Positions 118 through 22,447 of a DNA stretch of 40,352 nucleotides are shown here, in pieces. The stretch comes from Opitutales bacterium (lineage in GTDB: Bacteria; Verrucomicrobiota; Verrucomicrobiia; Opitutales; Oceanipulchritudinaceae). Location of the stretch: contig JAFIGE010000031.1 in the NCBI GenBank assembly GCA_020831585.1, positions 1 to 40,352 on the forward strand, read 5' to 3'. How positions within the stretch are numbered: position 1 is the stretch's first letter; every line of letters begins with the position of its first letter. Both the position numbers and the translations under genes were made by a program. The notes beneath the pieces are model-generated. The model did no database searches, was not told where the DNA came from, and saw only the letters and a program-made list of their open reading frames with translations.

Positions 118-2115
118 TCAGGGCTGATTGACTTGAAGGAAGTAGAGGGCGCGGGCACCCGGCTCCAGCGGGGTGACCTCCACGCCCATGCGGCCATCCG
201 GAAGAGCGCTTTCGGCGGCGGCGGCGCTGGCGGTGGGGGTGAAGGGTTGACCGTTCAGGCTCTCGCCGAGGAGGGTTGGGGTCTCCTCAAAGGATGACTG
301 TGTGTAGAGCCGAAGAAGGATATCGCTCGCGTTGGTGTTTCTCGGGAAACGCAGACGGTGGGGCGCGCCATCTTCCGAAATGATCTCCAGGGGGGAGAAC
401 GAAGAAGGCGCGTGCGGGTCGATCCCGGTGGCATAGGCGAGCAGGTTGGCCAGGCCGCTGCCGTTGATGTCGGCGGCGGGGTCGGCGCGGCCTTGGGCGA
501 TTTCTTCGGGGGTGAAGTGCAGGGCCTGCCAGGCGGGCCAGGTTTGCGGTGCTTCGCTCGCCGAGAGGGTCAGTGTAACCGTTTTCGTATCGGGATTAGC
601 CGACAGCTGGGCGGTCATTCCGAGTGCCTCCGCGTTGACCGATCCGGCCAGGCTTCCAAATACGCCGTAGGAAAAGAGCGTATACGTTCCCGGAACGAGC
701 GGATCTCCGGAGCCCGCTTGGAGGAGGATCGTGCCCGCGAGGTCGAGGGTGCCGCCGACCGCAATGAGCGGCGCGCCGTCGGCAGAAAGGCCACCGGGGT
801 GGAGCCGCAGGGTGGAGCCTTCGCCGAGGACGAGATCGTGGGTCAGGTGCAGGTGCCCGCCGACCAGGCGAACTTCGGACGTATCGATCAACTCAATACT
901 TTGCAGGGAGTAGGTTTCCTCCGGCTCCGGAAAGAAGGCTGCTTGCCCGCTCTCTTCGAGGTGCAGGGAGAGGTAGGGACCGACGTTGGCGTCGGCGTTG
1001 GGATGATCGCCGCTGTAGTCGGGATTTGTGTGAAACTCGATCACTCCCTCTTCAATGATGTAGCGGCTGCCGGGCGGTTAGGCATGGTTTCCGCGAAGGA
1101 TGAGGCGGGCCGGGCCGGTTTTGCGAAGTGTCGTGTCAACCGTGTTGCCCCAGTTCGGTCCCCAGCCGTCGTCGAGGTTGGTTTCGAAGCGGCCCTCCTC
1201 GGTATGGGTGAGGTCGACCTGTGTATCGAGGATCCAATCACTGATCCAGGCGACGCCCCCGTCGAAATACTGCGGCTCGCCCGCGACGCGCCAGACAGCG
1301 GTGTCGCCGCCCCAGATTTTTAATCCGCCGTGGTGCTTGATGCCGCCGGCCGCGCCCTTCCAGATCTGCGGAAGGTTTTGGGAGGCGTGGGTGGTGATGG
1401 TCGTGTCGATCATGCGGAAGACGGAGAACCCGCCGACCGGGTCTGTTTCGGTGCCCCCCATGTCCGCGTCAAAGGCGGGATCAAAATGGAAGCCGCCCGT
1501 GCCGTCCCCGAGAAGGCGGAAATCGCGGGCGTTCCAATCCGGTAGTTGATTGTTCACGACAGCCTGCGGGCCGAAAATGAAAACCGCGCCCTCAAGGGCA
1601 TTGATGTAGGCGCGGTTTCCGCCGCCGGTGTGGTCGAAGAATCCGTTGTAGGTCACCTCCGCCCCTTCCCCCCGCACGGTCACGAGGAGGGTGCGGTTGA
1701 AGGCCGAGTGTCCGCGAATCGTCCAATCCACCGATATGGCCCCGGGCGGGGTGAGGACGAGGCCGCGACCGGTTGTCTGCGCTCCGCCGAACTCCATGCG
1801 CAGTTCGCCCGCGCCGGAGGGGGTTCCCTGCACGATGAGTTCCGCAGTCTGGATACGCACGGTGCCGTGCAGGGCCAGATCGGCCACGCTCACGGTGGAA
1901 GGGACGCGCACTTCGCTGCCCGCCGGTATGGTTGCGCTGGATCCGGGAATCCAGTTGACGTTGTTCTCGCCGTCCCACCAGACGCCGGGAGCATTCCAAG
2001 CGGCGGCACCGGTTTGCACGCCGGGCGTTGAGGGGTCGGCATCAAAGATGAGGGCGCTCGCCGCAACTGTCGTCGAGGCGAGCGCCCACCCAAAGGCAAT
2101 GCGAAGAAGGATCAT
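118..2115 (-). pseudogene. Secreted autotransporter-repeat-like protein, interrupted by an in-frame TAA
   Basis: The first part (1078-2115, 345 residues) starts with a signal peptide (MILLRIAFGWALASTTVAAS) and reads as a beta-helix protein ending in a motif like the passenger-associated transport repeat (L-R-K-T-G-P-A-R-L-I-L-R-G-N). The stop at 1078-1080 is TAA, and the same frame stays open beyond it to 118. The downstream part continues with P-P-G-S-R-Y-I-I-E-E-G-V-I-E-F, as expected for the rest of such a repeat. The last 140 or so residues are the tail module (A-D-I-N-G-S-G-L-A-N-L-L-A-Y-A-T-G-I-D-P) also found in three other secreted proteins here. The gene overlaps the upstream 1374-residue gene by 4 bp (ATGA), so the two are co-translated. 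A GTG at 1042-1044 could in principle restart translation, but without a signal peptide. A substitution in a former Tyr codon is the simplest explanation; a sequencing error is possible. Confidence 0.7.
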
Positions 2116-5100
2116 TCCGCCACAGAGTTAACGGATACACGAACGAATTGCGGCGCGTCGCTGGCAAGCGCCGGGTTGACGCGGGCCACCACTTCGTCGA
2201 CCTCACCGTTCGGGGTGACGGTGAGGTGGCTGAGGGTGGCCGGAGACCAATCGATCAAGTCATTTGAAAACTCGACGACGTAAACGAGGTCGGCGACGGT
2301 GTAGCTGGCTCCATTGGCAACGCCGCCGGGGAGGCGATGGTAGGTCACGGTGAGGTGTGCGGCGCCGCCCACGGGCGTGCTCTCAACCACGGGCATGAAG
2401 GCGGAGTTGGGCTGATAGGGATTTCCGCCAAAAGCGCGTTCGAGGCGGTTGGGAATGCCATCCTTGTCCGGGTCCATGTCATCCGCCCCATCGCCGGTAT
2501 TGGCGGGCGAGCCAAAAAAGGTCTGACGCCACTGCTCGGCCGGGGTGAGGGGCGTACCCTCGCCGTCGACGGTCACTTCAATCTCTCCGAAGGTTTGCAC
2601 TTCCCCGTCGTCCGCAAGGAGGCGGAGGCGGTGCGTGCCGGGGGTGTCGAAGGTCACCGTGGTCGAGAGAGCGCCGACATCGCCGAAGGCGGCCAAGCCG
2701 GGACCGGCGAAGTGTATCCATTCGGTCACGACCATTCCGATGTCCGCGGGGAGGCCATCGTCGTCGGCCGAACCGGTGAGGGAGACGGGTGTACTCACCT
2801 GGGCGGCGACCACATCTGCGCCGGCGTCGGCGGCCGGGCCAATGTTACCCAGATCGCCAAAGCCGCTGACATTGGAGAAGTCGACCGTGGTGAGGAAGTT
2901 GTTCCGGTGACTCGTCACGGCGAGGCCGATGTAGATTTCCTCGGGCATGACAACGGTGTTGGAGCCGAGCTGGACCCAAGTTACTCCGTCGACGCTGCTG
3001 AAGCCGGTGAAGGTGTTTCCGGAGCGAACGAGACGAACCCAGGGGCGGTTGCCGCTGCCGGAGCTGGAAGTGCTCGCACCGGTGGCGGTACGGAACTGCG
3101 CCCGGTTGCCATTTGAGGCGGAGCGGTGGACCATGACGTTACGGGAGTTGGCATCGAGGGTCTCCCGCATCATGACGCCGGCTTTGGCCCACGGATCGCC
3201 TCCGGGGTTGGCCACGTAGTTGACCTGCGCGATAATTTCGCCGTCGCCGACGAGGGTCGAGTAGGCGAAGTGGAAGGCGTCGTTGGAGCCCCAGATATCC
3301 GCACCGGAACCCAGCAGGGTGAAGACGCCGTCTTCCTCGCTGGCGCTTCCGGCGGGGTTGGTGTTGCCGATGTCGGTGGAGAGGAAAACGCCCGGCTCAA
3401 TGCCGACGAGAACCTGCACCTCCTGCGTCGACTGGGCATACCCGTCGTCGGCCGTGAGGCGAAGGGTGTAACTGCCGTCTTCGGAGAACCGCACCCCGGT
3501 GACGGGGGCATCGGCGGCATCCCACAGAACTGGCTGCGGACCGGAAACCAGCTCCCATGTCGTTGTCACCGGGCCGGGCGTCATGCCGTCATCGGTGACC
3601 GTGGTATCGAGCATGAGCCCGACACCCGAAGGCACCGCCACACGGTCGGAGCGCGGCAGGTTCAGGGTGATCGCGGGCGGCTCATTCGTTTCATTGTCGA
3701 TGATTGTTACCGTGGTGGTGGACGGTTCGCCCAAGAGGGCACCGCCAGCAACGTCGGAAAGGGTGATCTGAAAGGTGACGTCGCCGAGGGCGAACTCGTC
3801 GTCGATGATGGTGACAACGATCTGGCGGGCGGAGCCATCCCCGTCGGCCCATTCGAGCGTTCCGCTCACGGCCACGTAGTCCTCACCGGCAACTGCGGTG
3901 CCGTCGCCGGTTGCATAGGCCACGGAAACGGATCGTTCGGACCCGCCGCGCACAACTTCCACGCTGACCGTGCCCGCATCTTCATCGACGGAAACGGCAT
4001 CGCTCGAAAAACGGATGACCCCGGCGGGGTTGTATTCGAGATTTTCGACGACGACAAACTGGTGTGTTGAAGCGCTGTAGCCGTCTTCGTTGGTGACGGT
4101 CAATCCGACCAGGTAGGTGCCGGTGGCGATATATTCGTGGGTCGGTTCCGGGCCGGTGGCGGTGGAGCCGTCGCCAAAGGTCCAACGGTATTCGGTGATC
4201 GCGGAAGCGCTGGTGGAATCGGTTGCATCAAGGAAGAGGCGACCGCCGTTCTCGACTGCGGCGAATGCGGGCACGGGGCGTCCTTCGTCGAACGGCATGA
4301 GCCCGAAAACGGCGGTGATGCCGTTGTAGCTCTCTTCACCCCAGGCAGGCACGTTGGCCGTGGGGATGTTGTTGCCGGAAGCGGAGGTGCCGGCTCCGTT
4401 GCTGTGCTGACCAACGACAAGGAGGCCGCCGCTGATCGGCCAGACACCCTGGAGGACGGTGTTGCTTGCGCCAACGGGCTCGGCGTCGATATTGCCATCG
4501 GGGTAGGTCCATGTGCCCATGAGCGCGCTCGAATAGGCGAGGGCGTCGAGGTTCGGCTCGTAGGCGCGGACCCAATTGCTCCAGGGACTTGTGCCCTCAT
4601 TGAGGACGGGGTTGTTGTGCCCGAGTCGGCGGGGCAGCTTTTGGTGGGCGTTGCTTGTTGTGACCATGCGCGGTCCCACGCCGACCATGTAGACGCGGCC
4701 GTCCGGACCGACGCGGGCGGAGTTCTTCGTTACGCCTGTTGTCGTGAGGTCGGGCCAACCGGCATTGTGGTTTGGCCAGCCATCGTGAATGGGCTCGGGG
4801 TAGGGCTGGGTCGGCCATTGGCCCTTGCCGCTGATGATCCGGCGAAAGAACCCGGCGACGTAGGTGGCGGCGAGGAGGTCGCCCTGGTCAGCTTGGAGGC
4901 GCGCAATGTAGGAGATGTGAATGTTCCCCTCGGTGCCCGTGAAGCGGTTCTGGAAGCCGCTTGCGCCGGGCCGGGCAGCAATGGCGTTGCCCGCCCAGAA
5001 ATTGGAGACGTTGTTTCCGTGGCACCGGGCGACGACAACGACGTTGCCCCCTTCGGACAGGGGTATGGAGTAGTCGATGTCCATGCCGTCGATGTATTGG

Positions 5101-6236
5101 TCGGGCTCGGAGCGCCAGGTTGTGTCGATGAGGCCGTCGCCGGTGGTGTCGGCGGCTTCACGGTAGAGGCGGTTCCACCACTTCATGTTGCCCTCGGCGT
5201 CGTAGCCGATGACGGCGGGCTCGAAGTCGGGGTTCTCCCCGTGGCCACTGCCGGGAGCGAGGATCGATTTGATGTTGTAGCCGAAATAAAAGTGGTTGTT
5301 GCGGCGGTCGACGGAGATGGCCCCGATCCAGTGGCGCCCTTCCGCGCGGTAGCCGTTGTAGCCGTAGGCTGTGCCGTTGATCACGCGCACCGGTTCGCCG
5401 GTATCAAAAGAAAAACGGATCATGATATCGATGGGCCAGGTGCCCTGGCGAATGCCGCCGTTGCCATCGGGCGTGATGGCAAAGAGTTCTTCGTCGGTCC
5501 AGGACTGGTTGTCCGTGGGGAGGCGAATGGCGCTGTGGACGGCGTCGGGGAATTCCGCGCCGATGCCGCGCACGTAACTGCCGTTGACCCAGTGGCTCGC
5601 GCGAAGGGCCGGGAGGGAGGTGCGCGCACCGGTGGGATCGAGAAACCCAACCGTGGCACTCCATTCGCCCCCTTCGGCGAAGACGACGCGGCCGTCGTTG
5701 CCGACGTCCCAAAGTTGCTCGATTTCGTGGCCGTTGGCGGCCGAGACGGCATAGGTCCAGGCGAACCCGGTGGGGCGGCCATCGACAAAGTTGTTGTTCA
5801 GCGGGGCGATGAAGTAGCCACCGGGGATCTGGCCGGAGACGTAGAGCGTGCCCGTGGGTTCGCCGGGGATTTCGGTCGAACGCATCCAGCGCAGATTGAT
5901 CACGGAGCCGTGGGGGAGGTGGGCCACCTCAAGAATGGAGCCTGCGTCGCCGGAGATGCGGAGGAGGAAGGCCGTCCGCGCCGAGTTAGCGTTGGGCAGG
6001 CCGTTCGGGACCAGTTCGGTGCGCGGTACGGAGGCATCGATCCAGTCGAGGTTATTGGTGATGCCGAGGACGAGCAAAGTGCCGTCGGAAAGTTCACGCA
6101 CATCATGGAAGCGCGTGTTTGCCCCGCCACCGGCATAGTGGACGATGGGACCGGAAACACTCGCAGCAAGGAGCGCCGGAAAGAGAAACAGGCAGACGCT
6201 CAAAAGGCGCCCTGCGGAGAAGGGGATTCTTTTCAT
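2112..6236 (-). CDS. Large secreted protein with PKD, Calx-beta and DUF1349-like domains
   Basis: A 1374-residue exported protein with a signal peptide (MKRIPFSAGRLLSVCLFLFP, then A-L-L-A-A-S). Residues 30-650 are a repetitive beta-rich region, possibly a propeller, with no family I can name. A PKD domain follows at about 655-735 (Y-R-W-T-F-G-D-G-S), then a Calx-beta domain at about 740-846 (V-A-G-E-D-Y; E-W-A-D-G-D), an Ig-like segment, and a lectin-like segment at about 952-1120 (K-A-G-V-M-M-R-E; V-D-G-V-T-W) resembling DUF1349-type domains. The shared tail module starts near 1229 with D-P-D-K-D-G-I-P-N-R-L-E. These domains usually mediate surface adhesion or glycan binding; an enzymatic role is not evident. 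The start codon abuts an IS4-family insertion that removed the native upstream region, so expression is probably altered. The 3' end overlaps the next gene by 4 bp. Confidence 0.85.
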   Translation of the reverse strand: MKRIPFSAGRLLSVCLFLFPALLAASVSGPIVHYAGGGANTRFHDVRELSDGTLLVLGITNNLDWIDASVPRTELVPNGLPNANSARTAFLLRISGDAGSILEVAHLPHGSVINLRWMRSTEIPGEPTGTLYVSGQIPGGYFIAPLNNNFVDGRPTGFAWTYAVSAANGHEIEQLWDVGNDGRVVFAEGGEWSATVGFLDPTGARTSLPALRASHWVNGSYVRGIGAEFPDAVHSAIRLPTDNQSWTDEELFAITPDGNGGIRQGTWPIDIMIRFSFDTGEPVRVINGTAYGYNGYRAEGRHWIGAISVDRRNNHFYFGYNIKSILAPGSGHGENPDFEPAVIGYDAEGNMKWWNRLYREAADTTGDGLIDTTWRSEPDQYIDGMDIDYSIPLSEGGNVVVVARCHGNNVSNFWAGNAIAARPGASGFQNRFTGTEGNIHISYIARLQADQGDLLAATYVAGFFRRIISGKGQWPTQPYPEPIHDGWPNHNAGWPDLTTTGVTKNSARVGPDGRVYMVGVGPRMVTTSNAHQKLPRRLGHNNPVLNEGTSPWSNWVRAYEPNLDALAYSSALMGTWTYPDGNIDAEPVGASNTVLQGVWPISGGLLVVGQHSNGAGTSASGNNIPTANVPAWGEESYNGITAVFGLMPFDEGRPVPAFAAVENGGRLFLDATDSTSASAITEYRWTFGDGSTATGPEPTHEYIATGTYLVGLTVTNEDGYSASTHQFVVVENLEYNPAGVIRFSSDAVSVDEDAGTVSVEVVRGGSERSVSVAYATGDGTAVAGEDYVAVSGTLEWADGDGSARQIVVTIIDDEFALGDVTFQITLSDVAGGALLGEPSTTTVTIIDNETNEPPAITLNLPRSDRVAVPSGVGLMLDTTVTDDGMTPGPVTTTWELVSGPQPVLWDAADAPVTGVRFSEDGSYTLRLTADDGYAQSTQEVQVLVGIEPGVFLSTDIGNTNPAGSASEEDGVFTLLGSGADIWGSNDAFHFAYSTLVGDGEIIAQVNYVANPGGDPWAKAGVMMRETLDANSRNVMVHRSASNGNRAQFRTATGASTSSSGSGNRPWVRLVRSGNTFTGFSSVDGVTWVQLGSNTVVMPEEIYIGLAVTSHRNNFLTTVDFSNVSGFGDLGNIGPAADAGADVVAAQVSTPVSLTGSADDDGLPADIGMVVTEWIHFAGPGLAAFGDVGALSTTVTFDTPGTHRLRLLADDGEVQTFGEIEVTVDGEGTPLTPAEQWRQTFFGSPANTGDGADDMDPDKDGIPNRLERAFGGNPYQPNSAFMPVVESTPVGGAAHLTVTYHRLPGGVANGASYTVADLVYVVEFSNDLIDWSPATLSHLTVTPNGEVDEVVARVNPALASDAPQFVRVSVNSVAE

Positions 6237-6241
6237 TTAGG
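6235..6241. repeat. Target-site duplication, left copy (ATTTAGG)
   Basis: Seven bases identical to 7716-7722, immediately outside the left inverted repeat of the IS4-family element. They include two bases of the start codon of the 2112-6236 gene. Confidence 0.85.
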
Positions 6242-6268
6242 GCAGTAGTGTTCGGCAAGGTGCGTGCT
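6242..6268. repeat. Left terminal inverted repeat of the IS4-family element
   Basis: 27 bp, matching the reverse complement of 7689-7715 at 26 of 27 positions. Confidence 0.9.
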
Positions 6269-6404
6269 ATGGGTGGGGGTGTTTTCAGTTCTGTGCGTTT
6301 TTGTTTGTTTGGGTGATCGTAGCCGTGAGGTTCATGCTGGATCAAGGGCGTGACGCGTACAGGGGCTTGGGTCGCGTCCGCGGGCCGGACGCGGTGGCGC
6401 GTTT

Positions 6405-7619
6405 TCAGGACTTCTTTGTTTTTTGCAGGGACAGGGCGGCGGCCAGTTCGTCTTCCGTCATCCAGCCCATGAGGTAGAGTTGGATGGCTTCCATTTGCCG
6501 CTTGTTGGGGCGCGTGCCGGTGAAGGCGGCGAGCATAAGCGCCATAATCAGGGCAATGTAAAGTTGGGCGGTGATCCCGTTGCGGCTCTCGGCGAGGAAG
6601 CCGCGTGTGCCGAGGATGCATTTGAGCCACTTGAAGAAGGTCTCGATCTCCCAGCGGTAGCGGTAGAGCATGCACAGTTCGACCGCGTCGCTTTCGGTCA
6701 AAGTGGTGACCAGGCGGATGAGTTTTCCGTCGCGGCGCAAGGTGATCATGCGCACGGCCTGGCCTTTTTGCGGATCAGGACCGAGGATCACCGTCTGATC
6801 GGCCACGACACCGTAGGCGCGGGCCTCATCGCTGAGGGCGTGTTCTTCGAGCACGGTGTGTTCGGGTTGGTCGCGCACGCGCATGAGCGCGTCGGCCTGT
6901 CCATTGCGCACGAGCGTGAAGTAGCTGTAATCCAGCCCGTAGTAACGGTCGCCGCAGTAAAGCCGTCCGGGCTCAATGCGCGGAGCGAGGACTTTGCGCT
7001 CGCAACAGGCCCCCGGCGTGATGGCGGCGTCTTCAATGGTGCCGTCGAGGACGTTGAAGAGCAGGTGCAGGCGCACCCGTTTGGTCGCTGTCTGCCTGCG
7101 GTAGACGGCCCAGGAAATACGGTCCAGTGCGGCGAAGAAACTGCTGTCAACGGCGATCATTCGCTTGACGAAGTCTACCAGACGCGCGTCGGTCCCGGTT
7201 TGTCCGGGAGCGCGCAGCCGACCGCGCAGGGAGCGTATGAGGCCGCGCAGCAGGTTTGCATCGAAGAGATGCTGTGCCTCGGAGAAAGATCCCAGACTCA
7301 AGGGGACATCGCTGCCGAGTGCTTTGCGCACCGTCGCCGAATCCTTGGAGGCCGCGATAATGGCGCGCGCACTCTTGAGCACGGGGTTGTAAAAGACCAA
7401 CAGCAGAGCGGAGAAGTAGTTGCTGGCAAAGAGGGTGCGGCGGGGATCGTCTTCGCTGGGGTGGATCTGTTCGCGTCGACGACTTTCCAGTTGCTTGTGG
7501 AGTAATTTGCGGAAGGTCTCGAGCAAGCGCAGTCCGCGCAGTTGCCCGGCTGCAAAAGGGTCGCTGTCGATGTCCTCGGCCACGGCGGAAGTTATCGCAC
7601 AAAACCGTACCTTGTACAA
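6405..7619 (-). CDS. IS4-family transposase (DDE, YREK signature)
   Basis: A 404-residue transposase that would cut and join the ends of its own element. The DDE catalytic region is visible: the first Asp in I-A-V-D-S-S-F-F, the second in Y-C-G-D-R-Y-Y-G-L-D, and the Glu within Y-R-Y-R-W-E-I-E-T-F-F-K-W-L-K. The last segment fits the IS4 signature Y-x2-R-x3-E-x6-K exactly. No frameshift or internal stop is present, so it is probably functional. It lies inside well-formed terminal inverted repeats. The C-terminal region (after F-L-A-E-S-R-N-G-I-T-A-Q) is hydrophobic and helical, as usual for the family. Confidence 0.93.
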   Translation of the reverse strand: MYKVRFCAITSAVAEDIDSDPFAAGQLRGLRLLETFRKLLHKQLESRRREQIHPSEDDPRRTLFASNYFSALLLVFYNPVLKSARAIIAASKDSATVRKALGSDVPLSLGSFSEAQHLFDANLLRGLIRSLRGRLRAPGQTGTDARLVDFVKRMIAVDSSFFAALDRISWAVYRRQTATKRVRLHLLFNVLDGTIEDAAITPGACCERKVLAPRIEPGRLYCGDRYYGLDYSYFTLVRNGQADALMRVRDQPEHTVLEEHALSDEARAYGVVADQTVILGPDPQKGQAVRMITLRRDGKLIRLVTTLTESDAVELCMLYRYRWEIETFFKWLKCILGTRGFLAESRNGITAQLYIALIMALMLAAFTGTRPNKRQMEAIQLYLMGWMTEDELAAALSLQKTKKS

Positions 7620-7688
7620 GTTACATTTGCGTTACAAATGTTGCGGGGGTGTCACATTTATCCCTTTCCCCCAATCAAGCGGAACAAG

Positions 7689-7715
7689 AGCACGCACCCT
7701 GCCGAACACTACTGC
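7689..7715. repeat. Right terminal inverted repeat of the IS4-family element
   Basis: 27 bp, inverted relative to 6242-6268 with one mismatch. It is followed directly by the second copy of the target duplication at 7716-7722. Confidence 0.9.
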
Positions 7716-7722
7716 ATTTAGG
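7716..7722. repeat. Target-site duplication, right copy (ATTTAGG)
   Basis: Identical to 6235-6241. The bases that follow (GATAATTTAAGG) are the displaced native upstream region of the 1374-residue gene. They match the sequence before the FAD gene at 9312-9330. Confidence 0.85.
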
Positions 7723-7815
7723 GATAATTTAAGGGGGGGATTGGAATCTCAATAAGGGCCGCCCCCCGTTAGAGAGGCAAGCAAAATACGGTGTCTTCGT
7801 GGGGGCGATACCAGG

Positions 7816-7864
7816 GTTTTCAGAAGCGGGTATCAGGAGGGCAAGAGGCGCTGGGCGGCGCGGA
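7816..7864. repeat. Direct repeat A', copy at the 3' end of the FAD gene
   Basis: About 49 bp, nearly identical to 9595-9643 with a few substitutions and a 1-bp length difference. Both copies contain the stop codon and the last codons (R-A-A-Q-R-L-L-x-S) of their gene, although the two genes are otherwise unrelated. Confidence 0.85.
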
Positions 7865-9311
7865 TCTCATTTTGCGGGCAATTTGCACTTACCGAGGCTT
7901 GATGACAGGGATTTGAATCGGGCAAATAGGCTCCGTAATCCTGAAGACGGGAACGCAACCGATCCGATTCCAGGGAGTGAACATCCGGGCGGGGCGTGAA
8001 GGCTGTCAAGGCGGCGGCGAGTCCGGCGGCCTCTCCCATGGCCAGGCAGCTCGGCATCACCCGAACACTTCCCTGTACCAGGCGTTCGGTCGAAATGCAG
8101 CGTCCGGCCACGAGTACATTCGCCAAACCTTTGGGGGTGAGGCAGCGATAGGGGATGCCGTGCGATTCCCCGGGGCCGTATTTCGCCTTTAATTTTCGCC
8201 GATCCTTCTCTCTTTCCTCCTCCGACGCGGGTTGATCCGGTTTCGATAATTGATGAATGTCGATATAGTAACAGTTGCGACTAATCTCGTCGGGAAAACT
8301 TCGGCGCTGCAAGTAGTCATCGAGCGTGAGGACATAGTCCCCCATGACCCTGCGGGTTTCCCGGACGCCCATGAGCGAACCGGTGAGAACGAGGTAGGCA
8401 TTGCCGAAGGCGGCCGGAAAGAATTCCGCCAGCGCATCTCTGTAGGCCTTCGCCAGTTTTCTGCCCACGGGAAGCCCTTGGGAAACACTCCGTGGATCGG
8501 TGTTGTCGTAATCGTATACATGACCGGCGTTGAATCCGACGGTACTGGGGCCAATCAGATTGGAGCAAACATGGGTATCGGGAATCCGGGGATAGCGCCC
8601 GGATTTGATGATGGCGTAAATCGGGCTTTCCGGGTTGTCGGGATGCAAATTCGGCCCGTCCCGGTAGGCGGCTTCATTCACATTGGCCAGCACGAAACAG
8701 TGCGTGGCAGCCATTAAAGGCTCGTTGCCCCCATCACCTTTTACGGTTTCGGCCCCGGCCATAAAACAGAGATCCGCGTCTCCGGTGCAATCGATATACA
8801 CTTTGGACCGGAGGGCGGAAAGGCCGCCTTTGTTGACCACAAGGATCGCGTCCACCTCATCGTTTTCCCGTTTTTCCACGGCGGCCAGCGAGGTGTGAAA
8901 CAAAATTTCCGCTCCGGCTTCCAGAACCATTTCTTCGTAGATACGTTTTAGATCCTCGGGACTGATGGGCACCCAGTCCACTTTTTCTTCGGGCACATGC
9001 GGGGTGGACCGCTTCGAGGCACGGAGAATGCGCTCCGCCAGTCCTCCGTAAATGACTCTTTTTTTGTCGGAAAAGGGACACCAGGCTGGAACCAGGGCGT
9101 TGGTCCCCATTCCGCCGAGCGCGCCGGTTCCTTCAATCAGAAGGGTGCGGGCTCCTTCACGGGCGGCGGCCGTGGCGGCGGTGCTGCCGGAAGGGCCACC
9201 GCCCACCACGATCACATCCCAGGTATCATCCATGGGCAGGTTTCTTGAGGACAGGGTGTAGGTTTTCATTTCGCTCAAAATGCGCCTTGTGGAGAGGGGG
9301 ATTCTTTTCAT
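7833..9311 (-). CDS. FAD-dependent oxidoreductase
   Basis: A 492-residue flavoprotein of the FAD_oxidored type. The dinucleotide fold is at residues 31-56: D-V-I-V-V-G-G-G-P-S-G, with the acidic E in L-L-I-E-G. A second FAD contact region is Y-I-D-C-T-G-D-A-D near 175. The C-terminal FAD-binding stretch is V-A-G-R-C-I-S-T-E and then M-G-E-A-A-G-L-A-A. Such enzymes often occur in glycan-use clusters of this phylum, but the substrate cannot be read from sequence. The first 14 residues come from a repeated leader also found at the start of the 1374-residue gene, so the true start may be Met15 (9269) or Met27 (9233). The last residues lie in a repeat shared with the GH31 gene. No signal peptide is apparent, so it is probably cytoplasmic. 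Confidence 0.85.
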   Translation of the reverse strand: MKRIPLSTRRILSEMKTYTLSSRNLPMDDTWDVIVVGGGPSGSTAATAAAREGARTLLIEGTGALGGMGTNALVPAWCPFSDKKRVIYGGLAERILRASKRSTPHVPEEKVDWVPISPEDLKRIYEEMVLEAGAEILFHTSLAAVEKRENDEVDAILVVNKGGLSALRSKVYIDCTGDADLCFMAGAETVKGDGGNEPLMAATHCFVLANVNEAAYRDGPNLHPDNPESPIYAIIKSGRYPRIPDTHVCSNLIGPSTVGFNAGHVYDYDNTDPRSVSQGLPVGRKLAKAYRDALAEFFPAAFGNAYLVLTGSLMGVRETRRVMGDYVLTLDDYLQRRSFPDEISRNCYYIDIHQLSKPDQPASEEEREKDRRKLKAKYGPGESHGIPYRCLTPKGLANVLVAGRCISTERLVQGSVRVMPSCLAMGEAAGLAAALTAFTPRPDVHSLESDRLRSRLQDYGAYLPDSNPCHQASVSANCPQNEIRAAQRLLPS

Positions 9312-9336
9312 TTAGAGATACTTTAAGAGGGGGGTA
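9270..9336. repeat. Leader repeat B, upstream and start of the FAD gene
   Basis: On the minus strand this reads a C-run, TTAAAGTATCTCTAA, then ATGAAAAGAATCCCC and TTTTGAGCG. The start of the 1374-residue gene has the same sequence at roughly 85 percent identity (6197-6241, continuing at 7716-7740 beyond the IS insertion). It is a duplicated gene leader. Confidence 0.75.
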
Positions 9337-9438
9337 AACACGAAGTTTGCCAGCGATCGGGAAACACGCGTTGCCTGGGGTTGCCATGGTAGACTGGGGT
9401 ATGCGCAAGCGGTCCGGCCCCTAACACGCTTCCGGCGG

Positions 9439-9517
9439 AAAGCGGCGCGAAGCGCGCGCACTCCAAAGAGCATTGGACGGGCGGAGGTTTTTGGAGTGCG
9501 GCGCTGTGCGCCGCTTT
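9439..9517. repeat. REP-like inverted repeat between the GH31 and FAD genes
   Basis: The left arm (9439-9467) and right arm (9490-9517) are complementary over about 28 bp with a few mismatches. The right arm contains its own hairpin (GCGGCGC-TGT-GCGCCGC). This looks like an extragenic palindromic repeat. There is no T tract to make it a standard terminator. The rest of 9312-9611 holds no gene. Confidence 0.6.
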
Positions 9518-9594
9518 GGATTCGGTGAGTAGGCGGAGACGTTGGCATTATGGGAATCAGGACAAACCCCGCGAGTACAACCGGGGGGGCGAGG

Positions 9595-9643
9595 TTTTTC
9601 AGAAGCGGGTATCAGGAGGACAACAGGCGCTGGGCGGCGCGGA
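9595..9643. repeat. Direct repeat A, copy at the 3' end of the GH31 gene
   Basis: Partner of 7816-7864. It spans the stop codon and last codons of the GH31 gene. Together the two copies bracket the FAD gene plus its leader, a unit of about 1.78 kb. Confidence 0.85.
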
Positions 9644-12119
9644 GGAGTTTGGGGGCGCGGGTGAGGGCGGCGGTTTCGAGGGCGGCGCGTTTGGCCTTGG
9701 GGTTTACCTTGGGCCGGGCGCGTTTGCAGGCTTGGGCAAGCCGGTTGATGCCTGTTCGCAATTGCTGGAGTTCGTCGGCGGTTGTTTCGGGATGGGCGGC
9801 GATGCGGTGAGCGGTGAGGGCGAGGCGCCCGGCCGGGCGGAGCAACTCGTGGCAACTGGAGCGCAGGAGGTCAAAGGCGAGGTGGCAGCGGTGGAGCGCA
9901 CCGGTGAGCCCGGCGGCGGCTTCGGGGGCGTGTTCCGCTTCCCAGCGGATGTGGAGGTGCTGGGGCTGGTCGTGGTCGACTTCGGGAAGTTGAAGGACGG
10001 TGGCGAGGCTCTCTCCGCACCAGTGCCATTGATCGCGGGGCAGGGGTTGGCCGTCGCGCGTGATTTTAGCGGGCGGCAGGGTGTGGGGAATGCGAAGGGT
10101 CACGGGGCGGCGTTTGCGAACGCCCTCGAAGGCCCCTTCAATGGGGTCGAAGGTGACAGATAGGGTGGTGCGGGTGGCGTGGCTGTGCAGGGGCAGTTCG
10201 GAAAAGGCGTTTTGCTCGTAGGCGGTGCTGACCCCGTCGTCCTCGTAAAGGCGGTAGTGATCGTCGCCGCCGGGAAAGACGGTGATGTCGAGTTCGGGGT
10301 ATCCGGCGGCGGCGAGGCGTTTGACCGGTCCCTGACCGGGGAGGATACAGCCCGGGCGTACGAAGACGGGGGTTTCGCCGAGGGCATAGCGCTGGCGGTG
10401 GCGTCCGCCGGCCAGGGCCATCCCGGTGGCGGCATCGGTCCAGGTTCCATCCGGCAACCAGAAGGAGACGGGGGCGAGCCCGTCGTTGCCGACCGCGCAG
10501 GTGACGGGGGCAACGAGCATGCGGGAGCCGAAGCCGTATTCCTGGGGAAAGGCATAGGCATCCGGCTCAGAGGGTGTGCGATGGTAGAGCGGGTGGCAGA
10601 GCGATTCGGGTCCCGTGGCCATGCGGCGGCATTCGGTGTAGATGTAGGGAATCAGTCGATACCGGTTGCGCAGGGCGTCGGCCATGAGCGAGCCATGGGG
10701 TTCGCCCCAGAGCCGAAACCGCCGGTCCCCGGCCGCATCGCGGGCGCAATGGGTGCGGAAAATCGGTTGAAAGACGGTGGCCTGCACCCAGCGCAGATAG
10801 AGTTCGCCGCTGGTTTGGCCTTCCCACGGGCTACAGAAAAATCCGCCGGTGTCGTGGCTCCAGTAGCCGAAGAGGCTGTTGGCGCTCTCGGCGGTGAGAC
10901 GGAGGAGGTATTGGAGGCTGCGCCAGGAGCTTTCGATGTCGCCGGAGAAGCCGATAGGGGTGCGCCCGGCACCGGGTCCGCCGTAGCGGGAGAAGAGGAG
11001 GGGTCGCCGACCGGGGTTCCGCTCTTGTTGGTCCTGCCAATGCAGGTGATTGAGCCAGGGTAAGGGATCGAGTCCGGGAAGGGCACTTTTCCTGCCCTGT
11101 TGCCAGTCGAGCCACCACACGTCCACGCCGATGTCCTCATGGGGATGGAGGCATTCCTGAAACATGGCTCGCATGTAGGCGGGGTCGGTGCAGTCGAAGG
11201 GGACCCGTTCGGCATTTGCGGGCAGGCCGAGGGCCTTGGCCATGGCGGGAAACTGACTGTGGTCGTGGGCCACGCCCTGGCTGGGGTGCAGATTGCAGGC
11301 GACCTTCAACCCCTTTGCGCGCATGCCGCGGAGGAAGCTGGCGGGATCGGGAAAAAGGTCCCGCTCCCAATCGTAACCGCCCCAGCCTTTGGTGTGCCAC
11401 TCCATGTCGAGGACGAGCACATCGATGGGCAGGTCCTGGTGCTCGAATTCCGTCACCAGGGCCTCCAGTTCGGGTGCCGTGTAGGCCCACCAGCGGCTCC
11501 ACCAGTAGCCGAGGACCCAGCGGGGCACGAGGGGCTGGGAGCCGAAGAGGCGGGCGGCATCCCGAATGGCATCGAGATAGTCGGTGCCGTGGAAAAAGAG
11601 ATACGTATCGGAAATGTCAGCACGGCGGGCCTCCGGCCATTGGCCGCCGGGGGCATCGGGTCGCGGAATCAATACCGGTGTTTCAGAATCATCGAACCGC
11701 ACCCAGCCATCCCGCGAACAGAAGCCCGGTTCGTTGCCAGCGGAGACCATACGCTTACCGTTCCAGAGGAGGTTGCCGTGATGGGAGTCGACGGTGCGTT
11801 TGGCCCCGTGGAGGTTGCCTTTGTCCTTCATCTCCGGATGCCATTCGCGGAGTTCGCCATTCAGGCTGAATTGCACGGAGAGGTTGCCCGCGTGCGGTGC
11901 GCGACCGTCCTCGACATAGCGGATCTGCACGGAGCCGGTATCGAGAACCATGGCCGGGTCCTCCCGCGTGATCCGGAAGTCGCCTTGCGCTTCCGGGCGT
12001 TTGACGACGGTGAGCGTGGGGCGATCTTCAAACTGACCGTCCGCCGCATACTCGATGCGGATCAGGCGGTGAGAAAGGGCGGTAAAGCGAACGGTGGAAA
12101 AGGAAATGGAAACAGGCAT
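9612..12119 (-). CDS. GH31-family alpha-glycosidase
   Basis: An 835-residue glycoside hydrolase with the GH31 layout: an N-terminal beta-sandwich (about 1-200), a catalytic barrel (about 200-560) and C-terminal beta domains including a DUF5110-like part near 616 (V-F-P-G-G-D-D-H-Y-R-L-Y-E-D-D-G). In the barrel, V-L-D-M-E-W-H-T is the early active-site strand. D-V-W-W-L-D-W-Q-Q-G near 331-340 carries the nucleophile Asp, and F-S-G-D-I-E-S-S-W near 395 carries the acid/base Asp. The last 120 residues are helical and rich in Ala and Arg. No signal peptide is visible, so it probably acts in the cytoplasm on imported oligosaccharides. It lies 84 bp downstream of the secreted pectate-lyase-like gene on the same strand. 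The family covers alpha-glucosidases, alpha-xylosidases and others, and I cannot set the specificity. Confidence 0.9.
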   Translation of the reverse strand: MPVSISFSTVRFTALSHRLIRIEYAADGQFEDRPTLTVVKRPEAQGDFRITREDPAMVLDTGSVQIRYVEDGRAPHAGNLSVQFSLNGELREWHPEMKDKGNLHGAKRTVDSHHGNLLWNGKRMVSAGNEPGFCSRDGWVRFDDSETPVLIPRPDAPGGQWPEARRADISDTYLFFHGTDYLDAIRDAARLFGSQPLVPRWVLGYWWSRWWAYTAPELEALVTEFEHQDLPIDVLVLDMEWHTKGWGGYDWERDLFPDPASFLRGMRAKGLKVACNLHPSQGVAHDHSQFPAMAKALGLPANAERVPFDCTDPAYMRAMFQECLHPHEDIGVDVWWLDWQQGRKSALPGLDPLPWLNHLHWQDQQERNPGRRPLLFSRYGGPGAGRTPIGFSGDIESSWRSLQYLLRLTAESANSLFGYWSHDTGGFFCSPWEGQTSGELYLRWVQATVFQPIFRTHCARDAAGDRRFRLWGEPHGSLMADALRNRYRLIPYIYTECRRMATGPESLCHPLYHRTPSEPDAYAFPQEYGFGSRMLVAPVTCAVGNDGLAPVSFWLPDGTWTDAATGMALAGGRHRQRYALGETPVFVRPGCILPGQGPVKRLAAAGYPELDITVFPGGDDHYRLYEDDGVSTAYEQNAFSELPLHSHATRTTLSVTFDPIEGAFEGVRKRRPVTLRIPHTLPPAKITRDGQPLPRDQWHWCGESLATVLQLPEVDHDQPQHLHIRWEAEHAPEAAAGLTGALHRCHLAFDLLRSSCHELLRPAGRLALTAHRIAAHPETTADELQQLRTGINRLAQACKRARPKVNPKAKRAALETAALTRAPKLLRAAQRLLSS

Positions 12120-17687: not shown

Positions 17688-17922
17688 ATGAAGGTGGAAT
17701 CACCATTGGCTGAGATGAGCGTTGATGAGAAGTTGCACGCGATGGAAGCCCCTCTGGGCGGACCTTAGGCAAAGTGCGCCGGAGAGGGTATTGCCCGAAT
17801 GGCATCTGCGGATTCTTGAGGACCGGGAGCGCCGGTTGGCGGCAGGCGAGGAAGAAGTCCTTGATTGGGAGGAGGCGAAACGACGTCTCCGGGAAGATCT
17901 CCATGAAGGTGCGGATTCTTGA
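17688..17922 (+). pseudogene. Frameshifted antitoxin (addiction-module component type)
   Basis: The frame from ATG 17688 reads M-K-V-E-S-P-L-A-E-M-S-V-D-E-K-L-H-A-M-E-A and then hits a stop at 17766. Removing one C from the CCCC run at 17749-17752 lets it continue as L-W-A-D-L-R-Q to 17922, giving about 77 residues. The restored protein ends with L-D-W-E-E-A-K-R-R-L, the pattern of the TIGR02574-type putative addiction-module component that normally precedes a ParE-like toxin. A truncated ParE start overlaps its 3' end. The pair is almost certainly dead. Confidence 0.72.
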
Positions 17923-17962
17923 GTCCGCGCGGGTGGATCTGCGGGAAGGCTTCAGGCTTTCC
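17903..17962 (+). pseudogene. Truncated ParE/RelE-type toxin, N-terminus only
   Basis: MKVRILESARVDLREGFR matches the usual first 18 residues of ParE toxins paired with this antitoxin type. The similarity then stops where a LacI-tail-like sequence begins. The start overlaps the antitoxin 3' end, as in functional modules. The frame stays open through to hsdR. Confidence 0.68.
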
Positions 17963-17975
17963 CGAAACTCGAAAA

Positions 17976-18025
17976 AGCGGCCAGTGCCACGAGGGCGATT
18001 CGCTGTGCCCGCTGCGCTGGGAATG
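17976..18025 (+). pseudogene. LacI C-terminal relic
   Basis: One frame reads G-Q-C-H-E-G-D-S-L-C-P-L-R-W-E, matching G-E-W-H-E-G-D-S-L-R-P-P-R at the end of the intact regulator (17308-17341). The DNA similarity continues past that gene's stop (GCGCTGGGAATGCA against GCGCTGAGAATGCA). It marks a recombination junction with the truncated toxin. From here to 18208 I see no other gene. Confidence 0.6.
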
Positions 18026-18208
18026 CAACCCCATCCCGAAAGACCCGCCCCGCCCCTGGAGGGAAACGCTGAAAAGAGTTGTCGCAAGCCAACGCAGGCT
18101 TACGAATCATTGCTATGGCTGTTGTTCGCGCGCTCATTTTTTACGCCCCATTTCTCCATCGGGAGCCCAAGCCCCTGCGCGATTTTTGTCACCCACGTTC
18201 CGCCCACC

Positions 18209-20626
18209 ATGAATGAAGCCGATACCTGCCGGAAATACGTTGTGCCGGGACTCCAGTCCTCCGGCTGGGATGCCGAGCCCCATTGCCTTACGGAACAGAG
18301 GACCTTCACGAACCCCAAGGGACGCATCCGGATCGTGGGGGGAAAGATCGTCCGGGGCGAACCGAAGCGGGCCGATTACCTTCTCGGTTACCGCCGCGAC
18401 TTTCCCATGGCGGTTGTTGAGGCCAAGGCCGACTACATGACCCCTGGAGCGGGGCTTGGTCAGGCCAAGGGGTATGCGGAGATCCTGGGCCTCAAGTTCG
18501 CCTATTCCACCAATGGAACGGGTATTGTGGAGTTTGATTTCACGACGGGAATTGAACGCTCCCTGGATGCTTTCCCCACGCCGGAGGAGCTGTGGGCGCG
18601 GCTGAACGGCGAAAATCCGCTCCCGGCAGAAGCCAAGGCCAAGCTGCTCACCCCGAACTATATCGATCCGGACCGCCCGCCAAGGTATTATCAACAGATC
18701 GCCATAAACCGGGCGGTCGAGGCCGTTATGCGCGGAAAGCGGCGCATCCTCATCACCATGGCCACGGGCACAGGAAAAACGGTCGTGGCCTTTCAGGTCT
18801 GCTACAAACTTTGGACGGCACGGTGGAACTGTTCGAACGATCCGGTTAAGCGCCCAAAAATCCTCTTTCTGGCCGACCGGAACATTTTGGTCGACGACCC
18901 GAAGGACAAGACCTTCGTTCCCTTTGGCGACGCCCGCCACAAGATCGAAAACGGCGAAGTTGTGAAAAGCCGGGAGATGTATTTCGCCATTTACCAGGCC
19001 ATTTCCGAAGATGAGCGGCGCCCCGGGCTCTACCGGGAATTCGCGCCTGATTTTTTCGACCTGATTGTTATCGATGAATGTCACCGGGGGAGCGCGCGGA
19101 GCGACAGCAACTGGCGCGAGATTCTGGAATATTTTCAGCCTGCCGTGCAGCTCGGAATGACCGCCACCCCGCTGCGCAAGGACAACACGGCGACCTACCG
19201 CTACTTCGGAAACCCGATCTACCAATACAGCCTCCGACAGGGCCTTGACGATGGGTTTCTCGCCCCCTACCGCGTGCACCGTGTGGTCACGTCGGTGGAC
19301 GCGACCGGCTGGCGGCCGACCAAAGGCGAGCGGGACAAGCTGGACCGCGAAATCCCGGACGACGAATACCACACACCCGAGTTCGAGCGGCGGCTCTCCC
19401 TGCGCCCGCGCTCGGAGGCCATCGCGAAGCACCTGACGGATTTCCTCAAAGGAACCAACCGCTTCGACAAGACGATTATCTTTTGCGTCGACCAGGAGCA
19501 CGCCGAGGAGATGCGCGGGCTCCTCAACAACCTCAATGCCGACCTCGTGAAGACGCACCCAAACTACGTCTGCCGGGTTACCTCAGACGAGGGCAACACC
19601 GGCAAGGGGCACCTCAGCACCTTTCAGGAGCTGGAGTCCGAGACGCCGGTCATCCTCACCACCTCGCAGCTTCTGAGCACCGGCGTGGATGCTCCGATGG
19701 TCAAAAACGTCGTCCTCATTCGCCTCATCGGAACCATGACCGAGTTCAAACAGATCATTGGCCGGGGAACGCGCCTGAGGGAGGACTACGGCAAGTATTT
19801 CTTCAACATCATCGACTACACCGGCACGGCCACGCGGCACTTCGCCGACCCGGAGTTTGACGGTGATCCCGAGTTTGTCAGCGAGGAAGAGATTGATGAC
19901 GACGGGAACACCACGACAACCACGGTTGTCGATCCGGAGGATGACGAGGACGGAGACGACGAGGAAGGCGGCGGCGGCGGAGGGGAAACTGTGGAGGAGC
20001 CTCGGCCCGGCCCCGGACCGGTCATTATCGATCCGCCCGAACCGCCGAATGAGCCGCGCAAGTTTTATGTGCAATCAGGGAAAGTGCGCATCGCCACCCA
20101 CCTCACCCAGGACCTCGCGTCCGACGGCAAACAGCTCCGCGTCAGTGAATTCCGCGACTACACGGGAGAAGTCATCCGCTCCATCTTCACCGACATGGCG
20201 GAGTTCCGGCATGATTGGATCAATCCCGACCGCCGGGCGGAGGTGAGCGCTCTGCTGGCCGGGAAAGGCATCGAGGTGGAGCGGGCCGGGGAGATTTTTG
20301 AAAACCCGGAGGCCGATCCCTTCGATCTGCTCTGCCATATCGCCTGGAACGCCCCGGTCATGACCCGCTCCCAGCGGGCCACACGGGTTCGCGAGGAGCA
20401 GACAGCCTTTTTTGAAGAGCACGGCGAAGACGCCCGCAGGATTCTCGATGCCCTTCTGACCAAATATGCCGATCACGGGCCGACCGAGTTTTCCATCCCC
20501 GATTCCCTCAAAGTGCCGCCCATCTCCGAACTCGGGAATGTCTCCGAGATCATCAAGCGGTTTGGCGGGGCGGAAAATTTCCGCGAATCGGTCGCCCGTC
20601 TTCAGCAACTTGTTTACGCCGCCTGA
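18209..20626 (+). CDS. hsdR: Type I restriction enzyme, R subunit (HsdR, EcoEI-like)
   Basis: An 805-residue motor and nuclease subunit that translocates and cuts unmodified DNA. I chose ATG 18209 because M-N-E-A-D-T-C-R-K-Y-V-V-P-G-L matches the usual N-terminus. The frame is open upstream to the toxin relic at 17903. The nuclease domain shows R-A-D-Y-L-L and E-A-K near 54-72. The helicase motor has Walker A (M-A-T-G-T-G-K-T, near 183-190), D-E-C-H near 288, G-M-T-A-T-P near 316 and I-G-R-G-T-R near 517. An acidic, Gly-rich linker at about 559-595 leads to the EcoEI_R_C-type C-terminal domain that contacts the methylase. It is the first gene of the operon, with hsdM 39 bp downstream. Confidence 0.95.
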   Translation: MNEADTCRKYVVPGLQSSGWDAEPHCLTEQRTFTNPKGRIRIVGGKIVRGEPKRADYLLGYRRDFPMAVVEAKADYMTPGAGLGQAKGYAEILGLKFAYSTNGTGIVEFDFTTGIERSLDAFPTPEELWARLNGENPLPAEAKAKLLTPNYIDPDRPPRYYQQIAINRAVEAVMRGKRRILITMATGTGKTVVAFQVCYKLWTARWNCSNDPVKRPKILFLADRNILVDDPKDKTFVPFGDARHKIENGEVVKSREMYFAIYQAISEDERRPGLYREFAPDFFDLIVIDECHRGSARSDSNWREILEYFQPAVQLGMTATPLRKDNTATYRYFGNPIYQYSLRQGLDDGFLAPYRVHRVVTSVDATGWRPTKGERDKLDREIPDDEYHTPEFERRLSLRPRSEAIAKHLTDFLKGTNRFDKTIIFCVDQEHAEEMRGLLNNLNADLVKTHPNYVCRVTSDEGNTGKGHLSTFQELESETPVILTTSQLLSTGVDAPMVKNVVLIRLIGTMTEFKQIIGRGTRLREDYGKYFFNIIDYTGTATRHFADPEFDGDPEFVSEEEIDDDGNTTTTTVVDPEDDEDGDDEEGGGGGGETVEEPRPGPGPVIIDPPEPPNEPRKFYVQSGKVRIATHLTQDLASDGKQLRVSEFRDYTGEVIRSIFTDMAEFRHDWINPDRRAEVSALLAGKGIEVERAGEIFENPEADPFDLLCHIAWNAPVMTRSQRATRVREEQTAFFEEHGEDARRILDALLTKYADHGPTEFSIPDSLKVPPISELGNVSEIIKRFGGAENFRESVARLQQLVYAA

Positions 20627-20665
20627 TCCTTCCTCTCTTTCCGCGTCTCGCTTCACCCATTTTCC

Positions 20666-22447
20666 ATGCCCGCCAAGAAAACCACCCGTCAAAAAAAGAC
20701 CTCCCAGCCTCTCACCACCGCCCAGCGCCTCGGGGGACTCATCAAGTCCGCCCGCCAGATCATGCGCAAGGACAAGGGGCTCAACGGCGACCTCGACCGC
20801 CTCCCGCTCTTCACCTGGATTCTCTTCCTCAAGTTCCTCGACGATATGGAGACCGCCGCTGGAGAAGAGGCGGTCGTGGCCGGTCAAACCTATGAGCCCG
20901 TTATCGAGCCCCCTTACCGCTGGCGCGACTGGGCCAGCCGGGCCGACGGCATCACCGGCGATGAGCTTTTGAAATTTATCAATCAGGATGAGGCCCTCCT
21001 TCCCGATGGCAGCAAGGGACCGGGCCTCTTTGCCTACCTGCGCAACCTCCGTTCCGAGAGCGGGCGCAGCCGCCGCGATGTCATCGCCGACGTCTTCCGG
21101 GGCGTGACCAACCGCATGGAATCCGGCTACCTCCTGCGGGATGTGATCAACAAGGTCGACGCCATCCACTTCACCTCCAGCGAGGAGATGCACACCCTCA
21201 GCCGCCTCTACGAGAACATGCTCCGGGAAATGCGCGACGCCGCCGGCGACAGTGGCGAGTTTTACACGCCCCGCCCGGTCGTCCGCTTCATGGTCGAAGC
21301 CACCAACCCGCAACTCGGCGAGACCATCCTCGACCCCGCCTGCGGAACCGGTGGCTTTCTCGTCGAGGCCTACGATCACCTCGCCACCCTCTGCAAGAGC
21401 GTGGAAGACCGCCGCGTTCTTCAGCACGAGTCGCTCTTCGGGCAGGAAGCCAAATCACTGCCCTACATGCTCGTGCAGATGAACCTCCTCCTCCACGGGA
21501 TGGAGTTTCCCAACATCAAATACGGCAACACGCTCGCCCAGAAGGTCACGGAGATCGGCGATTCCGAACGGGTCGACCTCATTCTCACGAACCCGCCCTT
21601 CGGCGGCGAAGAGGAGCGCGGCATCCTCAACAACTTTCCCGCCGACAAGCAGACGGCGGAGACAGCCCTCCTCTTCCTCCAGCTCATCATGCGCAAGCTC
21701 AAGCGCCTCTCCTCGGGCAGGGCGGGGCGCGCCGCTGTCGTCGTCCCTAACGGAATGCTTTTCGGTGACGGGGTCTGCGCCCGCATCAAGGAAGACCTGC
21801 TCAAAAACTTCAACCTCCACACCGTCGTCCGGCTCCCCGAGGGCACCTTCGCCCCCTACACCGACATCCCGGCCAACCTGCTCTTCTTCGACCGCACCGG
21901 ACCGACGCAGACCATCTGGTATTACCAGGTGCCGCTTCCCGAAGGCCGCAAAAAATACACCAAGACGATGCCCATGCAGCCGGAGGATATGACCGCCTGC
22001 AAAGAGTGGTTTTCCGCGGACAAGCGCGTGGAGAACGAACAGGCCTGGCCCATTCCCTTCAAAAAAATCCACGACGGGGCCGTCGCCGCCGCGACCCCGC
22101 ATTGGGAAGCCTCCCGCGAAGCCGCCGCCCGCGCGCTCAAGCTGGAGCGGCAGGCCAAAGAGCTTCAGGCCGGAATCCGCGCAAACGGCAAAACGAGCGC
22201 AAAGAAGACCAGGCTCGATGAGCTGACCGCCGCCGCCGCCAACGAGCGCCGCCTTCAGGCCGAAGAACAGGCCGCCGGTGACGCCCTCTACTGGCCCATC
22301 TACAACCTCGACCACAAAAACCCCAACAGCGCCGACGCTCTCGAACACCTCCCCCCGGAGAAGCTGGTCGCGGGCATCCTCCAAAAAGAGCGTGAGATCC
22401 TCCGCCTCATGGAGGAAGTGAAGTTGGAAGTGGAGGCCCTGGGATGA
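20666..22447 (+). CDS. hsdM: Type I restriction-modification methylase subunit (HsdM)
   Basis: A 593-residue N6-adenine methyltransferase that modifies the host copy of the recognition site and forms the core of the complex. The N-terminal HsdM_N helical domain spans about 15-160 (Y-R-W-R-D-W). The SAM-binding motif I is L-D-P-A-C-G-T-G-G-F near 222-231, and the catalytic motif IV is N-P-P-F near 309. The C-terminal 100 residues are Ala-, Lys- and Glu-rich and probably coiled-coil, as expected for contact with HsdS. All motifs are intact. The stop overlaps the rhuM-like start by 4 bp (ATGA), which implies translational coupling. Confidence 0.96.
   Translation: MPAKKTTRQKKTSQPLTTAQRLGGLIKSARQIMRKDKGLNGDLDRLPLFTWILFLKFLDDMETAAGEEAVVAGQTYEPVIEPPYRWRDWASRADGITGDELLKFINQDEALLPDGSKGPGLFAYLRNLRSESGRSRRDVIADVFRGVTNRMESGYLLRDVINKVDAIHFTSSEEMHTLSRLYENMLREMRDAAGDSGEFYTPRPVVRFMVEATNPQLGETILDPACGTGGFLVEAYDHLATLCKSVEDRRVLQHESLFGQEAKSLPYMLVQMNLLLHGMEFPNIKYGNTLAQKVTEIGDSERVDLILTNPPFGGEEERGILNNFPADKQTAETALLFLQLIMRKLKRLSSGRAGRAAVVVPNGMLFGDGVCARIKEDLLKNFNLHTVVRLPEGTFAPYTDIPANLLFFDRTGPTQTIWYYQVPLPEGRKKYTKTMPMQPEDMTACKEWFSADKRVENEQAWPIPFKKIHDGAVAAATPHWEASREAAARALKLERQAKELQAGIRANGKTSAKKTRLDELTAAAANERRLQAEEQAAGDALYWPIYNLDHKNPNSADALEHLPPEKLVAGILQKEREILRLMEEVKLEVEALG

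Follow-up and report, generated by a model that had tools for sequence, protein, structure and literature searches.

An IS4-family insertion sequence at the start codon of a 1374-codon gene in an Opitutales bacterium and its possible effect on expression

Architecture of the insertion

The window, that is, the whole 40,352-nucleotide (nt) stretch of DNA analysed here, is one entire contig (C180) of the 5.28-Mb draft genome of an Opitutales bacterium assembled into 262 contigs, and it carries an insertion sequence (IS) lying between a large minus-strand gene for a 1374-residue protein and the upstream DNA of that gene. The element and the gene comprise the following features:

2112-6236, minus strand: gene for a multidomain protein of 1374 residues with PKD and Calx-beta domains; start codon hit by the insertion, reading frame intact
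6234-6242: first copy of the 9-bp target duplication, CATTTAGGG, with the ATG of the gene (6236-6234, minus strand) and the preceding in-frame TAA inside it
6243-7714, minus strand: complete insertion sequence of the IS4 family with IS4Sa-like ends, 1472 bp, comprising inverted ends and a transposase gene and flanked by the duplication
6243-6268, plus strand: terminal inverted repeat at the end facing the 1374-codon gene, 26 bp
6405-7583, minus strand: transposase gene, 392 residues, probable start GTG at 7583
7689-7714, minus strand: terminal inverted repeat at the 5' end of the transposase gene, identical to the other end at 25 of 26 positions
7715-7723: second copy of the target duplication, CATTTAGGG, from whose ATG (7717-7715) the frame now runs into the element as ATG-CAG-TAG

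Judged by its sequence, the element is complete and is a real IS4-family insertion, since the inverted ends, the direct repeat (perfect, 9/9, immediately outside the element ends) and the intact transposase occur together, a combination for which chance is not a concern. It is inserted at a 9-bp site made up of the start codon and the 6 nt that precede it, presumably by the cut-and-paste transposition assigned from its family. The original prediction of a complete IS at this start codon therefore agrees with the ends, the transposase score and the duplication, whereas its edges (6235-7722) and its 7-bp duplication holding only the first two bases of the ATG have to be corrected, because all three bases and an in-frame TAA lie inside a 9-bp repeat. 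The 7-bp version arises from assigning the outer G/C pair to the element ends, and it was rejected on the evidence of (i) the decayed copies on contigs C254 and C3, which start at CAG and are preceded by T and C, respectively, versus G in the window, (ii) the relative L042, from Verrucomicrobia bacterium isolate GSL.Bin9, which displays a 9-bp duplication, CACAACGGT, on both sides of the ends TAGTAG...CTACTG, one of which starts with TA and not CA, and (iii) the duplication lengths of the IS4Sa subgroup described below, which include 9 bp and whose accompanying end pattern and size agree with the element as well. With its edges corrected, the event is an ordinary IS insertion of a known kind.

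The duplication contains the whole ATG, and the start codon is consequently kept on both sides of the element as a by-product and not by luck. Because the in-frame TAA directly precedes the ATG in both copies, the gene is not joined to IS codons, and such a fusion, considered as a candidate, was rejected on this ground; the earlier statement that the reading frame survived is thus borne out.

The transposase is encoded in a single frame without stops, comprises the Pfam domain DDE_Tnp_1 and scores 158 bits with the family model NF033592, whose cut-off is 115. The open reading frame (ORF) lister placed this gene at 6405-7619 with a TTG start that coincides with a likely -35 hexamer; the match to L042 starts at residue 13 of this ORF, and the GTG at 7583 is probably the true start. 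According to the available text of PMC2266710, the IS4 family is defined by inverted repeats of 10-40 bp and the signature Y-(2)-R-(3)-E-(6)-K (YREK). The signature is present here as YRYRWEIETFFKWLK at residue 319 of the listed ORF, the inverted repeats measure 26 bp with 25 identical positions, and the duplication, at 9 bp both here and in L042, is near the length of about 10 bp expected for the family. L042 carries the nearest transposase relative, 67% identical, with the next at about 30%, in a genome scan that may omit the window's own genome, and a search among solved structures returned no match to the transposase at E 0.1.

The element is represented by one full copy only in its own assembly, which also carries two remnants, one of 235 bp on C3 (L008 2645-2879), with several internal deletions and one recognisable end, and one of 77 bp on C254, neither located at a contig end. 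A family search of the assembly disclosed four more IS4-type matches, weaker and all below the cut-off. Matches to the element occur in three of 89 genomes, namely its own, G016 (48 bp) and G029 (43 bp), and no full copy was found in the 88 relatives, all from outside the window's genus, with at most four candidates scored per genome. Plasmid records contained no match to the element, and among viral contigs three stretches fit a pattern, none of them confirmed. The perfect duplication and the intact transposase suggest that the insertion is young.

In the protein encoded by the interrupted gene, an N-terminal module approximately 730 residues long is followed by PKD and Calx-beta domains and then by a C-terminal region recurring in relatives; three close paralogues of the module, 65-71% identical, are encoded in the same genome. 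Direct reading of the sequence reveals a signal-peptide-like start, and the protein is probably exported. Its earlier description as a surface protein is indirect, relying on this start and on the PKD and Calx-beta domains. Eight homologues of the N-terminal module were taken for a comparison of gene starts, weaker ones being set aside, and three were dropped, two at contig edges (G013 C355 and G004 C31) and one in which the module is an internal domain (own C23). The element is absent from the 260 nt before the gene start in all five homologues with readable upstream DNA (G002 C173, G009 C306, G004 C4, and own C37 and C70).

The target site before the insertion

The sequence context of the target site involves an uninterrupted gene start nearby and two promoter candidates:

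7591-7619, minus strand: TTGTAC-17-GATAAC, candidate promoter of the transposase gene, separated from the GTG by 7 nt
7724-7752, minus strand: candidate native promoter TTGAGA-17-AATTAT, whose -10 hexamer abuts the target duplication and lies 6 nt upstream of the ATG within it
9272-9333, minus strand: paralogous gene-start module at the start of a flavin adenine dinucleotide (FAD) oxidoreductase gene, 62 bp ungapped, 55 identical to the joined flanks

The paralogous start lies about 3 kb from the insertion site and is intact across the junction position, with the far-side flank of the element matching it in register at 14 of 16 nt; no third good copy of the module was found in the genome, the next match having an E-value of 0.24. 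The match points to the sequence preceding the ATG as native to that place. Its telling part is the register, given that the match of the upstream flank alone, taken without the duplication and with the register free, does not exceed that of 8 of 500 shuffles. The same comparison bears on the idea that the element was misjoined at this place by the assembler, an explanation to which a draft of so many contigs lends some colour, but which is extremely improbable in view of the perfect duplication, the in-register match of the joined flanks and the single full copy in the assembly, which leaves no multi-copy repeat visible to misjoin.

The FAD-oxidoreductase gene itself lies between duplicated edges, 7813-7864/9592-9643 (52 bp, 94%) and 6197-6240/9272-9315 (44 bp, 91%), which may have been left by an earlier local duplication or by the insertion of a cassette. 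The first 14 codons of this gene resemble the signal-peptide-like start of its neighbour, and for this reason its own start may be an inner ATG.

What is certain from the assembled sequence is that the start codon no longer lies close to its native upstream DNA, the DNA from 7724 onward being displaced by 1,481 bp, the sum of the element and one copy of the duplication. The displacement claimed earlier is thereby upheld, with a promoter-like site adjoining the target and the paralogous start exhibiting the uninterrupted arrangement; the native leader, TTAAATTATCC, had been placed 1.47 kb away, whereas its last bases lie inside the duplication and the shift applies from 7724.

A consensus scan of 6000-8000 reported one promoter-like site, TTGAGA-17-AATTAT, whose -10 hexamer AATTAT starts at -12 from the ATG. 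One site is near the chance level, and it appears to be the location of the candidate, not its existence, that is informative: transcription from it would start at the A of the start codon or next to it, as expected for a leaderless gene. The genomic context was sampled with 248 starts, selected from 911 ORF-called genes of at least 150 codons in 1.41 Mb of the same genome as those whose first possible start is ATG and which have no other called gene in the 60 nt upstream. Hexamers with A at the second and T at the sixth position peak exactly at -12 (29/248, against 6-23 at the other 30 offsets), as do those of the form TAnnnT (9/248, against at most 6 at 54 other offsets), and pairs with both hexamers matching at least 8 of 12 positions occur three times among the 248 at -12 and twice at -13, the counts at the 28 other offsets averaging 0.36 and never exceeding 2. 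Thus a minority of genes in this genome may be leaderless, and the 1374-codon gene fits them.

Several observations weigh against a leaderless native promoter. The number of sites reported by the scan is close to that of shuffled sequences (mean 0.7, standard deviation 0.9), the call being a consensus match; the peak vanishes at a threshold of at least 9 of 12 positions over both hexamers (1/248 at -12, the same count as at four offsets beyond -14) and with single hexamers matching 4 of 6 positions with A and T at the second and sixth (5/248 at -12, up to 7 elsewhere). The unregistered comparison of the upstream flank mentioned above belongs on this side as well, and the paralogous start, on direct reading, keeps a -10-like hexamer but not the -35. 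The candidate promoter of the transposase is found with identical hexamers and spacing in L042 and is absent from the output of the consensus scan.

Expression of the interrupted gene and its partner

The native promoter candidate, the transposase gene and the 1374-codon gene are all oriented on the minus strand, with 168 nt separating the transposase stop from the ATG of the gene. The scan for terminator-like sites found two, against 2.8 expected by chance, neither the IS nor the 168-nt gap containing one on the minus strand. The Rfam search of 5900-9700 returned nothing at the gathering score, and the RNA folding of the junction is unremarkable (z-score -1.15). No Shine-Dalgarno (SD)-like sequence directly precedes the preserved ATG.

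On balance, the best explanation is that the IS4-family insertion split a likely core promoter, perhaps that of a leaderless gene, from the start codon and thereby cut expression, a reading that we regard as somewhat more probable than otherwise. The native core promoter would have ended at the target site, giving a leaderless or nearly leaderless mRNA, and the insertion would have placed 1.48 kb between this promoter and the gene. The native promoter would now yield an RNA beginning with ATG-CAG-TAG and running in the sense direction into the transposase gene, and the target gene, keeping its ATG, would have become a distal cistron behind the transposase stop, the expression of which would need internal initiation as well as transcripts reading through from either promoter, that of the transposase or the native one. 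Both the gene and its partner, already interrupted, are most likely expressed at a strongly reduced level, which need not be zero. The shared orientation and the absence of a terminator-like site in the scan make read-through possible from the native promoter, the upstream gene or the transposase promoter; the earlier view that both genes must rely on IS-borne transcription or be silent was therefore too narrow, having left out the displaced native promoter and the upstream gene.

The same observations bear on an alternative in which the element does little, read-through of the co-oriented element from any of these sources and SD-independent initiation at the preserved ATG keeping the gene expressed. 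Every gene points in the same direction with no intervening terminator-like site, as this alternative requires, but the element also leaves a 168-nt untranslated gap and removes the 5'-proximal start, changes that normally lower expression, and the interrupted partner is weak evidence against it. SD-like tetramers are only mildly enriched before the 248 starts (13-15 at -14 to -12 and at -9 to -7, compared with 5-10 at -30 to -15), and for this reason a start without SD may work anyway; some Verrucomicrobia are listed as SD-scarce in the available text of PMC10783764. The 1374-codon frame is intact and without decay, and in a tree of the N-terminal module (nine rows) the branch of the interrupted gene, at 0.19 against a median of 0.16, is not unusually long, giving no sign of long-standing decay. 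Finally, the sole minus-strand terminator-like site, at 6212-6194, lies inside the gene just past its start and could reduce expression with or without the element. The little-effect alternative is considered unlikely.

The partner lies downstream of the 1374-codon gene:

118-2115, minus strand: partner gene, a frame of 665 codons with an in-frame stop, TAA, at codon 346 (1078-1080)

This frame overlaps the end of the large gene by 4 bp, consistent with the coupling proposed earlier, which nevertheless holds for the first half only (1078-2115), the part open before the stop. The frame resumes past the stop, and G002 and G009 contain homologues with uninterrupted frames of 668 and 674 codons, respectively, that align across it. 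The interruption would fit decay after silencing. The homologue in G013 is likewise split, into two frames, and no copy of the element was found in that genome; decay within the partner family thus needs no IS, and the interruption was dropped as proof of silencing. Moreover, the stop could be an error of the assembly consensus or could predate the insertion.

The preferred reading, separation of a likely promoter from its start codon, can be extended to a 'promoter swap', a rather doubtful proposal in which the transposase gains the host promoter and the leaderless gene is disabled twice, losing also its 5'-end AUG, after which the partner may decay. Here the insertion would have taken place between the -10 box and a 5'-terminal AUG, with the AUG duplicated and the host gene sequence intact. 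A bias of the element towards such sites, if it exists, would make leaderless starts a favoured and self-serving target; the two insertion sites compared here, CATTTAGGG and CACAACGGT, are too few to judge a preference for start codons.

The locus is a clear and apparently young case of a coding frame left untouched and yet cut off from its likely promoter. Under the leaderless reading, should it prove true, keeping the ATG does not keep expression, and annotation alone would miss the inactivation; otherwise, the event is an ordinary IS insertion. A literature search combining leaderless genes with IS insertion returned no matching case, a result that does not exclude published ones.

Elsewhere in the window, a type I restriction-modification set occupies 17774-24707 on one strand, comprising HsdR (EcoAI/FtnUII type), HsdM, a RhuM-family gene and HsdS.

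Comparison with known systems

The IS4Sa subgroup, as given in the available text of PMC2266710, comprises elements with ends of the form CA------T, lengths of 1150-1750 bp and duplications of 8-10 bp. The window element, with CAGTAGTGT at both ends, 1472 bp, the YREK motif and a 9-bp duplication, falls within the subgroup values on every count; it is accordingly termed IS4Sa-like, a placement based on ends, size, motif and duplication.

Activation of genes by an upstream IS is documented in PMC11894529, the available text of which describes IS5 upstream of the fucAO operon of E. coli as an activating element with a fusion promoter shown by experiment. By analogy, an IS-borne or fused promoter could raise or deregulate the expression of the 1374-codon gene, and the transposase promoter candidate, kept in two elements and directed at the gene, would suit such a role. 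This outcome is nonetheless improbable, as the scan found no outward promoter-like site near the left end of the element and the interrupted partner argues weakly against selection for higher expression. Regarding the preferred reading of reduced expression, the two systems are alike in that the element lies between upstream control DNA and the gene and is able to change expression. They differ, as far as that text describes fucAO, in that the native promoter is still usable there, whereas in the window the likely core promoter would have been severed from the gene.

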